Assembly (NCBI GenBank): GCA_946553045.1
Contig: CAMNRO010000002.1
Coordinates: 84,736-148,735 of the forward strand
Source of the DNA: an uncultured Porphyromonadaceae bacterium
GTDB taxonomy: Bacteria; Bacteroidota; Bacteroidia; Bacteroidales; Muribaculaceae
Reading direction: 5' to 3'
DNA: 64,000 nt
The position numbers and the translations under genes were made by a program. Of the stretch, positions 7,339 through 11,109 are shown in pieces. Position 1 is the first letter of the stretch; each line of letters starts with the position of its first letter. The notes beneath the pieces are model-generated. The model did no database searches. It was not told where the DNA came from and saw only the letters and a list, made by a program, of their open reading frames with translations.

Positions 7339-8547
7339 TCAGTCGAGGTCGAGGAAGAAGCGCGGTATGTTGCAGAGAAAAACCGACGGGTCGTCGAGAA
7401 TGGCCTTGTTGGCCCTCAGGGAAGCAAGCGATATGTTGCCGACGGTGTAGCAGCCGTCGCCCGAAAGATAGCGCTCGGTTATTTTCTCGAATTTTATGCC
7501 GTCGGGCAGTTCGGGCCCGGGGTGGCGCAGATATACGCGTAGGGTGACGTCGTCGGTATAGACGGGGCGCCCCGAATAGCTCATTTTTTTGTATTCGTAG
7601 CGGTAGTCGTGGTGCCGGGCGGTGACATCGCTGAGTATTGAGGAGGCTGTCGGCAGGCTTCCGGCGCCTTTGCCGAACATGAACTGGCGGTCGTAGCATT
7701 CGCCGCGTATTACGACGCCGTTGTATTCGTCGTCAACGCTGTATATGTATTTTCCCGGTGCTACGAATTCGGGCATTACAAAGAGTGTGAAGCGTCCTTC
7801 GTCGAGTTTCACCACCTGGGCCACGAGTTTTATCTTCACTCCTTTTTCGCGGGCATAGCGGATATCGAAGTCGGAGATTGTTGCGATTCCATAGGCGAAG
7901 ACGTCTTCGGGCTTCACATAGACGCCAAGGGCGTGTATGGTGATTATGACAAGTTTGAAGAGCGAGTCGAAACCTTTGATGTCGAAGCTGGGGTCGGCTT
8001 CTGCAAAACCGAGGCGCTGGGCTTTGGCGAGAGCGTCGGCATAGTTCTCGCCGTGGTCGAAGACGCGCGAGAGGATATAGTTCGACGAGCCGTTGAGTAT
8101 GCCTTTCACTTCGAGCAGGAGGTCGTTGTCGTAATATTCCTCGAGGTTGCGAATCACAGGAATCGAGCCGCATGCCGAGGCGTCGTAGAGGAGGGCGGTG
8201 TTGTTGGCGCGCTGGAGTTCTATCAGTTCGGGCAGGTGGCGCGCTATCATGGCCTTGTTGCCGCTTACGACCGGTATCCCGCGGCGCAGGGCTTCTGTGA
8301 CGATGGCATATGAGGCTTCGGCATTGTCTACTACTTCGACAATGAGGTCTATGCAGGGGTCGTCGAGAATGTCGGCGGCTTTGTCGGTGAGCATGCCTTC
8401 AGGGAGCTCTATCGCACGTTTTTTTGCGAGCGAGTGCACACATATGCGTCGTATTGCGGCGTGTGCGTTGCGGGCGCTCCCGAGTACTTTGTAGATGCCT
8501 GTTCCGACTGTGCCGAATCCGAAAAGGCCTATGTTGAGTTCTTTCAT
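7339..8547 (-). CDS. hom: Homoserine dehydrogenase (monofunctional)
   Basis: 402 aa; NAD-binding GLFGFGTVGTGIYKVLG, VVSGNKAMIARH, ILNGSSNYILS; downstream of metX. Confidence 0.93.
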   Translation of the reverse strand: MKELNIGLFGFGTVGTGIYKVLGSARNAHAAIRRICVHSLAKKRAIELPEGMLTDKAADILDDPCIDLIVEVVDNAEASYAIVTEALRRGIPVVSGNKAMIARHLPELIELQRANNTALLYDASACGSIPVIRNLEEYYDNDLLLEVKGILNGSSNYILSRVFDHGENYADALAKAQRLGFAEADPSFDIKGFDSLFKLVIITIHALGVYVKPEDVFAYGIATISDFDIRYAREKGVKIKLVAQVVKLDEGRFTLFVMPEFVAPGKYIYSVDDEYNGVVIRGECYDRQFMFGKGAGSLPTASSILSDVTARHHDYRYEYKKMSYSGRPVYTDDVTLRVYLRHPGPELPDGIKFEKITERYLSGDGCYTVGNISLASLRANKAILDDPSVFLCNIPRFFLDLD

Positions 8548-8552
8548 AATTT

Positions 8553-9572
8553 TTATTTTACAGGGTTTGCAAGGATTGCATTGAGCTGGTCGTGCTCGAC
8601 AAGGAAACCGTCGTGGCCGAAAGCAGATTCTATTTCGCGGTATTCGGCGTTTGGCAGCATTTCGGCGAGAGCCTGCATTTCGGGCGGTGTGAAGACAATG
8701 TCGGTGCTGATGCCTACGACGAGCGCTGGCATGTCGAGGCGGCCGAGGGCTGTCCGCAGGCCGCCGCGTCCTCGGCCTGCGTCGTGTGTGTCGAAGGCGT
8801 CGAGAATCTTCACATAAGAGTAAACGTTGAACCGGCGGCTAAGTTTAGAGCCCTGGTAGCGCTGATAGGAGCATGCGCGGTGAGAACGCACGGGTGCGTC
8901 GTCATCGGCGTCGGGCGTCTGCTGGGTGCGGTTGTAGCCCTCGGGGCCGCGGTATGTGAGCAGGCCTATCGCCCTGGCTGCCTCGAGTCCTGCCGAGGCG
9001 GCATCGGGGCGGCGTTCGCCGTAGGTGCGGTCGGCGAATATTGCCATGCGCTGGGTCTCGTCGACGGCTATGCACCATGGCGAGGCTTTTGCGGCTGTCG
9101 CTATCAGCACGAGGCGCCCGAAGCGCTCCGGCTCTTCGACAGCCCACTCGATAGCCTGGAAGCCGCCTACGGAACTGCCGACGAGGGTGTCTATGTGCCC
9201 GAGGCCGAGATGGTCTGCCAGAAGAGAGTGTGCCCTGGCCATGTCGCGGATAGTAAGGTCGGGGAAGTCGGCGTAGTATGGCTCGCCGGTCTCGGGATTT
9301 ATGCTTGCCGGGCCGGTGGAGCCGTAGCATGAGCCGATTATGTTGGCGCAGACGGTGAAATAGTGCGCGGGGTCGAGAAAACCGCCATCGACGACCGTGC
9401 CGGGCCACCAGTCGGCAACGTCGCTGTTGGCTGTCAGTGCATGGCAGACCCAGACGGCGTTGTCGGCTTCGGGGCGGTGCGTGCCGAATGTGTGGTAGGC
9501 TATTTCGAGTCCGTGGAGCACGCCCCCGCTTTCGAGGTGGAAGTCGCCTTCGTATCGGTATGTTTTCAGCAT
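8553..9572 (-). CDS. metX: Homoserine O-acetyltransferase
   Basis: Start [17 protein letters not shown] inside the longer track ORF; alpha/beta-hydrolase motifs VGSSVGGFQAIEWA and SAFGHDGFLVEHDQL; overlaps the metY 3' end. Confidence 0.92.
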   Translation of the reverse strand: MLKTYRYEGDFHLESGGVLHGLEIAYHTFGTHRPEADNAVWVCHALTANSDVADWWPGTVVDGGFLDPAHYFTVCANIIGSCYGSTGPASINPETGEPYYADFPDLTIRDMARAHSLLADHLGLGHIDTLVGSSVGGFQAIEWAVEEPERFGRLVLIATAAKASPWCIAVDETQRMAIFADRTYGERRPDAASAGLEAARAIGLLTYRGPEGYNRTQQTPDADDDAPVRSHRACSYQRYQGSKLSRRFNVYSYVKILDAFDTHDAGRGRGGLRTALGRLDMPALVVGISTDIVFTPPEMQALAEMLPNAEYREIESAFGHDGFLVEHDQLNAILANPVK

Positions 9573-10858
9573 AGTCCGGCAGCGTGGAAGGCTTGTTGGA
9601 AATCGGCGATAATATCGGCGGGGTCTTCGAGTCCGGCCGATATGCGCAGGAGTGTCGGGGTCACTCCGGCTTTCTCGAGGTCGGCTGCGGAGAGCTGCTT
9701 GTGTGTGGTCGAGGCCGGGTGTGTCACGACGGTTATTGAATCGCCTATCATGGTCATATGGGCGGCAAGTTTCAGCGCTTCGACGAATTTGACGGTGCTT
9801 TCGAGCGAGCCCTTGAGTTCGGCGTTGAGCACGGCGCCCCCGCCGAAGCGGAAGTATTTTTCGGCATTGGCGTGCCAGGGGTGGTCTTCGAAGCCGACAT
9901 ATGCCACGCGCTCGACAGCCTCGCTGTCGCGCAGGAATTCGGCAAGACGGCGTGTGGCCTCTACCTGATGGCGCACGCGCAGCGAGAGTGTCTCGAGGCC
10001 TATCATCATCAGATAGCTGTCGAAGGCCGAGGGGCATGTGCCGAGGTCGCGCAGGCCGTCGACACGGCATTTGGCGATGAAGGCGGCGTTTCCGAAGGCG
10101 TCGCACAGATTCAGGCCGTGGTAGCCTTCCGACGGGCCGTCGATTTCAGGGAATCGTCCGTTGCGCCAGTTGAAGTTTCCTCCGTCGACAATTATTCCTC
10201 CCATGGCTGTGCCGTGGCCGTTGATCCATTTGGTTGCGGAGTCTACTATTATGTTGGCGCCCCATTCAAAGGGGTTGCAGAGGTAGCCGCAGGCGCCGAA
10301 GGTGTTGTCGACGATGAATGGAACGCCCTTTCCGGCTGCCGCGGCTGCTATTGCGGCGAGGTCGGGCACGGCGCAGGTGGGGTTGCCCATGCTTTCGGCG
10401 AAAACGGCGCGTGTACGGTCGTCGATAAGTGCACCGATGGCTTCGGCAGAGGCTTCGGCGGCTATTTTCACTTCTACACCCAGGCGGGGCAGAGTGTGGC
10501 GGAAGAGGTTGTAGGTGCCTCCGTAGAGGAACGGCGATGCTACTATGTTGTCGCCCTTGGACGCGAGCATGGTCACGGCTACGAGAGTTGCTGCCATGCC
10601 GGAAGATGTCGCCACGGCGCCGACTCCGCCGTAGAGTGCTGCCACGCGTTCTTCGTAGGCCGAGTTAGTGGGATTCTGCAGTCGTGTGTAGATGTTTCCG
10701 GGCTGGCTGAGCTCGAAGAGGTCGGCTGCATACTCGCATGTGGGGAAGCGGTAGGCGGCTGTGGGATAGATGGCGTTTCCGCGCGAGCATGTGGCGTCGT
10801 CGCGGTTGAGGCCGGCGTGAATCTGGCGGGTTTCGAATCCGAGTTTGCTGTAGTCCAT
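9566..10858 (-). CDS. metY: O-acetylhomoserine aminocarboxypropyltransferase/sulfhydrylase (PLP)
   Basis: 430 aa; [60 protein letters not shown]. Confidence 0.94.
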
Positions 10859-10884: not shown

Positions 10885-10920
10885 TAAAAAAAGAACCGAC
10901 GCCCTTTTGAGGTGTCGGTT
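10885..10920 (-). terminator. Intrinsic terminator between Met-rich leader ORF and metY (attenuator terminator)
   Basis: Minus strand AACCGACACC-TCAAAAG-GGCGTCGGTT-C-TTTTTTT: 10-bp stem with one A.C mismatch and a T7 tract, located ~30 nt before metY ATG. Confidence 0.85.
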
Positions 10921-10956
10921 CGCTGTTATTTATGTTGCTGGGTTAAGGCATATGCG

Positions 10957-11058
10957 TTACCGACACGGTGGAAATTCCATCATGCACATGACCATAGCCA
11001 TCATTTCCATACCTGCAGGCATGGGCTTCGTGGCTGTGTTGGTGTATGCGTATTTCAT
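10957..11058 (-). CDS. Methionine-rich leader peptide, 33 aa: MKYAYTNTATKPMPAGMEMMAMVMCMMEFPPCR
   Basis: Hand-translated from the reverse strand; 9 Met in 33 codons (8 in codons 13-27); stop followed by attenuator terminator; not in the supplied ORF track because it is short. Confidence 0.85.
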   Translation of the reverse strand: MKYAYTNTATKPMPAGMEMMAMVMCMMEFPPCR

Positions 11059-11078
11059 AATTTTGTCGGTTTCTGCTG

Positions 11079-11109
11079 CAAAAGTACACAAAATCCTTTT
11101 CAGTGCAAA
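11079..11109 (-). promoter_or_regulatory. Bacteroidota sigma-ABfr-type promoter for leader peptide-metY-metX-hom
   Basis: Minus strand TTTG-N19-TACTTTTG (TTTG CACTGAAAAGGATTTTGTG TACTTTTG). Confidence 0.75.

Follow-up and report, generated by a model that had tools for sequence, protein, structure and literature searches.

The window (the whole 64,000-nucleotide stretch of DNA analysed) carries on its minus strand metY (9566–10858), metX (8553–9572) and hom (7339–8547), encoding O-acetylhomoserine sulfhydrylase, homoserine O-acetyltransferase and homoserine dehydrogenase respectively. An earlier note, made from the sequence alone, had named this as a metY-metX-hom operon, and the assignment held on profile matches, with metY (TIGR01326, 543 bits) and hom (NF004976) above their cut-offs and metX below its own (best match TIGR01392, 337 bits, cut-off 500). 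Upstream of metY and on the same strand, a Bacteroidota-type promoter can be read from the sequence as a −33 box, TTTG (11109–11106), then 19 nt and a −7 box, TACTTTTG (11086–11079), so that a transcript start would be expected near 11072; homologous leaders also have TAnnTTTG-like boxes upstream of their ORF. There follow a 33-codon leader peptide ORF (11058–10957, stop codon TAA) and an intrinsic terminator (10921–10886), the latter with stem arms at 10921–10911 and 10903–10893 and a T7 tract at 10892–10886, downstream of which metY starts at 10858. The ORF translates as MKYAYTNTATKPMPAGMEMMAMVMCMMEFPPCR and has nine Met codons, eight of them within codons 13–27; none of 20,000 first-order shuffles of the 298-nt intergenic region reached eight Met in 15 codons and 17 of 20,000 gave five or more. 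The promoter and ORF were thus as the earlier note had claimed, as was the terminator, there called textbook, with the small correction that its stem contains one A.C mismatch (8 bp, mismatch, 2 bp). A simple hairpin scanner reports this hairpin on the opposite strand only.

Two further segments had been overlooked, and with them the leader is a switch, more than an ORF and a terminator. Segment 2, GTGTCGGT (10966–10959, minus strand, like all that follow), lies over the last ORF codons and the stop codon and forms the 5′ arm of an antiterminator, an assignment resting on complementarity, spacing, covariation and folding. It is exactly complementary to 8 nt of segment 3, ACCGACACC (10919–10911), which lies within the terminator 5′ arm and is common to antiterminator and terminator, as judged by complementarity and covariation, while segment 4, GGCGTCGGTT (10903–10894), is the terminator 3′ arm by complementarity. 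Segment 1, ACCGACA (11070–11064), a putative protector or pre-emptor located upstream of the leader ORF, is complementary to segment 2 and, by sequence and folding, could pair with it in the window. The layout is trp-type, pairings 1:2 and 3:4 being mutually exclusive with 2:3, and the last Met codon stands 13–14 nt upstream of segment 2, with the stop codon on segment 2 itself.

Comparison across relatives showed the Met-rich ORF and terminator recurring ahead of met operons, across dozens of genomes, and bore out the predicted pattern of a constant Met run among varying residues, the N-terminus being variable and the Met run conserved. Our first survey searched 150 genomes of the window's family for close metY orthologues; among those whose upstream region could be used, 13 (counting the window's own) have a Met-rich leader ORF, with unrelated N-termini, and L010, L015 and L017 have none. 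Nor was such a leader seen by eye upstream of the 44%-identity metY paralogues (L020–L031). A covariance model built from the 13 leaders, that of the window included, matched 28 places at E ≤ 7e-8 in 299 family genomes. All 15 strong matches outside the model-building set precede methionine genes: metY in 12, metX-hom without metY in two (L051 and L061), and in one (L194) a metB-like gene followed by one for a PatB C-S lyase. The genes behind the leader, here metY-metX-hom, are hence in each arrangement those of the pathway of the amino acid presumed to be sensed. Three weaker matches, L195–L197, proved to be real leaders. In a named genome collection, 52 of 80 metY orthologues have a Met-rich short ORF upstream, Alistipes/Rikenellaceae among them, and the other 28 yielded no Met-rich leader ORF. 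Eleven Rikenellaceae-labelled or related leaders outside the model set scored E values of 7e-8 to 1e-18, and the carriers include a named strain, Alistipes sp. An66 (L260), with a record that bears no MAG label. In total, Muribaculaceae-type and Rikenellaceae genomes yielded about 45 distinct leaders. Model matches outside the window's family in a search of the order (E 5e-6 and worse) were put down to chance and, where such weak matches were examined, were ATG repeats inside coding genes.

Two side observations concern individual leaders. L194 (G267:C6:17505-20745), before the genes for the metB-like PLP enzyme and the PatB-family C-S lyase, is a second putative Met attenuator in one genome, which also carries L061 before metX-hom. 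A Cys codon, moreover, often occurs inside the Met run of leaders in general (MCM) and is codon 25 in the window (10986–10984); it might add cysteine sensing or be a mere RNA constraint.

The alternative pairings are supported across genomes. Given the 13 leaders, RNAalifold picked the 2:3 antiterminator helix unprompted. In 28 leaders, native 2:3 pairing was −16.95 kcal/mol versus −14.22 when segments were swapped between genomes, with none of 10,000 permutations as low, and 3:4 pairing was −21.0 kcal/mol native versus −13.3 swapped. A 47-row alignment contained 21 double-sided compensatory cells versus 6.0 in shuffled alignments (none of 500 shuffles as high), and sliding the partner by one column reduced pairing from 87.5% to 43–56%. 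This alignment was fitted to the model and its rows are related, so that the covariation figures lean in favour. Within the Muribaculaceae-type set there is covariation among segments 2, 3 and 4; the 11 Rikenellaceae-type leaders added no further covariation because segments 2 and 3 are nearly invariant there, which leaves the test uninformative.

The ORF has a coding signature, its translation being inferred. TGA (16), TAG (15) and TAA (14) all serve as stop codon at the conserved position, and of the 297 ATGs within the final 75 nt, 289 are in frame and eight are not, a figure partly selected by the picking of leaders for Met content in that frame. These data bear on a rival reading, in which the AUG repeats and CCGG segments form an RNA that binds a ligand or protein, as a new riboswitch or a repressor site would, and the ORF is incidental. 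In its favour, ATGTGCATG and CCGGGTG are conserved at the nucleotide level in many leaders, and riboswitch control is common for met operons. Against it stand the confinement of the ATGs to one frame, the three stop codons sharing a position and an ORF that stays open across an unalignable N-terminus; moreover, 2:3 and 3:4 were the sole conserved helices found by RNAalifold in the 13 leaders, with no aptamer-like fold emerging. We consider this reading very unlikely. We give even less credence to a second, that the leader encodes a small protein, rich in Met and Cys and functional in its own right (metal-binding for instance), made from the same transcript. The adjacent Met and Cys (MCM) of many leaders would suit it, but the N-terminus and length are not conserved, the C-terminal residues are dictated by an RNA segment, and the genes behind the leader are met rather than metal genes.

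We conclude that metY-metX-hom is likely controlled by ribosome-mediated transcription attenuation, with the leader reading charged Met-tRNA, a mechanism that is inferred, without experiment. The case for it in sequence, complementarities, conservation, covariation, frame and spacing is shown, and the features of an attenuator that can be tested in sequence are all satisfied except conservation of segment 1, which was sought in homologues by eye only and not established. In this scheme, when Met is plentiful the ribosome would pass the Met codons, reach the stop codon and cover segment 2, and the 3:4 terminator would form. When Met-tRNA is short, it would stall in the Met run, at least 13 nt upstream of segment 2, which, thus freed, would pair with segment 3 over 8 bp, so that no terminator would form and the operon would be transcribed. 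Without translation, segment 1 could hold segment 2, allowing the terminator to form; this last step is no more than possible, segment 1 being present in the window without established conservation elsewhere.

The spacing of Met run, antiterminator and stop codon matches that of a his/trp-type attenuator: across the leader set, a median of 12 nt separates the last Met codon from segment 2, which the stop codon abuts (median 0 nt). In folding models with a ribosome footprint of −16 to +13, a ribosome at the stop codon gave a terminator probability of 0.88 and zero for 2:3, and one stalled at Met22 on the full transcript gave 0.81 for 2:3. Equilibrium folds of the full-length RNA favoured 2:3 for stalls at Met19 and Met22, with a ribosome at Met26 or Met27 giving 0.38 and 0.29, not clearly in its favour, whereas a stalled ribosome with just segments 1–3 made gave 0.99. 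Because the Met26/27 equilibrium folds do not clearly favour 2:3, switching has to occur while transcription is in progress and no more than segments 1–3 exist. It counts against an attenuator that tight transcription–translation coupling in Bacteroidota is not shown here, as do the metY orthologues without the leader, the unestablished conservation of segment 1 and the lack of extra covariation in Rikenellaceae. Leader translation, the transcript start, termination and the response to methionine are likewise inferred, in the absence of expression, ribosome profiling or Term-seq data. The ribosome-mediated Met attenuation that the earlier note had put forward is thus supported by comparative evidence, its dependence on Met remaining an inference.

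A third rival accepts that the leader senses methionine starvation and has it act mainly through translation or Rho-dependent termination, the hairpin being secondary. It draws support from related Met leaders in other Bacteroidales, which show a hairpin over the stop codon and no clear terminator. Against it, a T-rich tract follows the hairpin both in the window and in most Muribaculaceae-type leaders, and the hairpin 5′ arm covaries with segment 2; we judge it, too, very improbable.

One variant of Met leader, mostly from Rikenellaceae and upstream of metY (L267, L269, L271–L274, L277, L279, L281, L282 and L284), ends in ATGCGAATGTGCCGTTAG (MRMCR and stop), with a GTGCC-GTTA-GGCAC hairpin (GTGCCGTTAGGCAC) over the stop codon; no obvious terminator was seen in these leaders, and no SAM-I riboswitch in those scanned. 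In other families, L155, L156 and L163, in metY or metX operons, have Met-containing leaders without SAM-I that end in RMMDMLMQLG, MQDMLMLLG and SSMIMRMHRQMLG respectively, each followed by a stop codon, at which a GGGGTA..TACCCC hairpin begins in L155 and L156. Met-reading leaders may then form a family of which that of the window is the form with a clear terminator, and common descent is conceivable from the shared MCMR and ATGTGCATG, on which shared sequence the suggestion rests entirely.

The distribution of SAM-I riboswitches differs between the window's family and its order. The window has no match to any Rfam family, SAM-I (RF00162) and T-box included, those at a relaxed threshold all falling far below gathering scores, and SAM-I was absent from all 120 family genomes searched, as against its presence in 54 of the 199 examined from the order. 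Retrieved metX-containing loci, which came almost entirely from other families, had SAM-I in 25 of 40 cases. The absence of SAM-I from the family and of any Rfam match counts in favour of the attenuator, which appears to stand in for the usual SAM riboswitch.

Many of these riboswitches are themselves followed by a short ORF. An ORF starts within 30 nt of the aptamer at 25 of 30 SAM-I sites, and 20 of those 25 ORFs have Met in their last seven codons versus 3.0 expected. In metY-metX operons of other Bacteroidales, an ORF of 14–47 codons starts about 13 nt after the aptamer (ending, for example, in IMPLMPMCMR and stop), and loci combining SAM-I with a Met-ending ORF include L126, L127, L133, L136, L138, L152, L173 and L180. 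These could be composite leaders with two inputs, SAM and Met-tRNA. At three metH sites (L170, L179 and L183), the gene itself starts 12–15 nt after the aptamer, a position suggesting that SAM-I may act there on translation initiation; the leader ORF accordingly seems to occupy the place on which the riboswitch acts. On a bolder reading, which could as readily prove wrong as right, a leader ORF with Met codons precedes met operons across Bacteroidales, in many families SAM-I sits on the start codon of that ORF, about 13 nt after the aptamer, so that SAM and Met-tRNA are read in series, and the window's lineage lost the aptamer, leaving the leader to stand alone as a Met attenuator.

Met operons are known mainly under the control of SAM riboswitches, T-boxes or repressors, and methionine has so far been a notable gap among the amino acids read by leader-peptide attenuators. 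Attenuators listed in Rfam cover only His, Leu, Thr and Trp; others are known for Ile/Val and Phe, and a gammaproteobacterial origin has been proposed for attenuators (PMC3766115). An actinobacterial survey reported nothing for methionine (PMC1262725), and ORFs resembling leader peptides are mentioned, in general terms, in a transcriptome study of B. thetaiotaomicron (PMC7366714). The belief that no Met-codon attenuator had been described in Bacteroidota stands to the extent that none was found in the literature searched (open-licence papers only). If true, conservation of a Met attenuator among abundant gut Bacteroidales would add both an amino acid and a phylum to the range of classical attenuation, would imply working transcription–translation coupling in Bacteroidota, and would mean that one lineage reads codons in a role that a SAM riboswitch fills in its relatives; related strains with names, such as Alistipes sp. 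An66, make it testable.

The nearest match found is "metL" of Streptomyces lividans, likewise proposed as a leader peptide containing Met and located ahead of methionine genes, metNIQ (PMC8079986). It differs in belonging to Actinobacteria, in preceding transport genes and in having only two Met after the start; it lacks a typical terminator, its termination being "unclear" in that paper's own words, and is unvalidated, and homology between the two is not established. Met-specific T-box leaders of Firmicutes, mentioned in PMC3766115, differ in binding tRNA directly and having no leader peptide. These leaders sense tRNA-Met charging to control met genes. SAM-I riboswitches control metY-metX operons in many Bacteroidales, whereas the window leader has no aptamer and would read codons. 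With the trp, his, leu and thr attenuators of Proteobacteria it shares a leader peptide rich in codons for the pathway's product, alternating 1:2, 2:3 and 3:4 segments (1:2 resting on the window alone), a stop codon on segment 2 and an intrinsic terminator before the first gene, differing from them in that it would sense Met and in its Bacteroidota host. The proposed mechanism is of a known kind; its novelty would lie in the amino acid sensed, in the phylum and in its being found where SAM-I serves in relatives.
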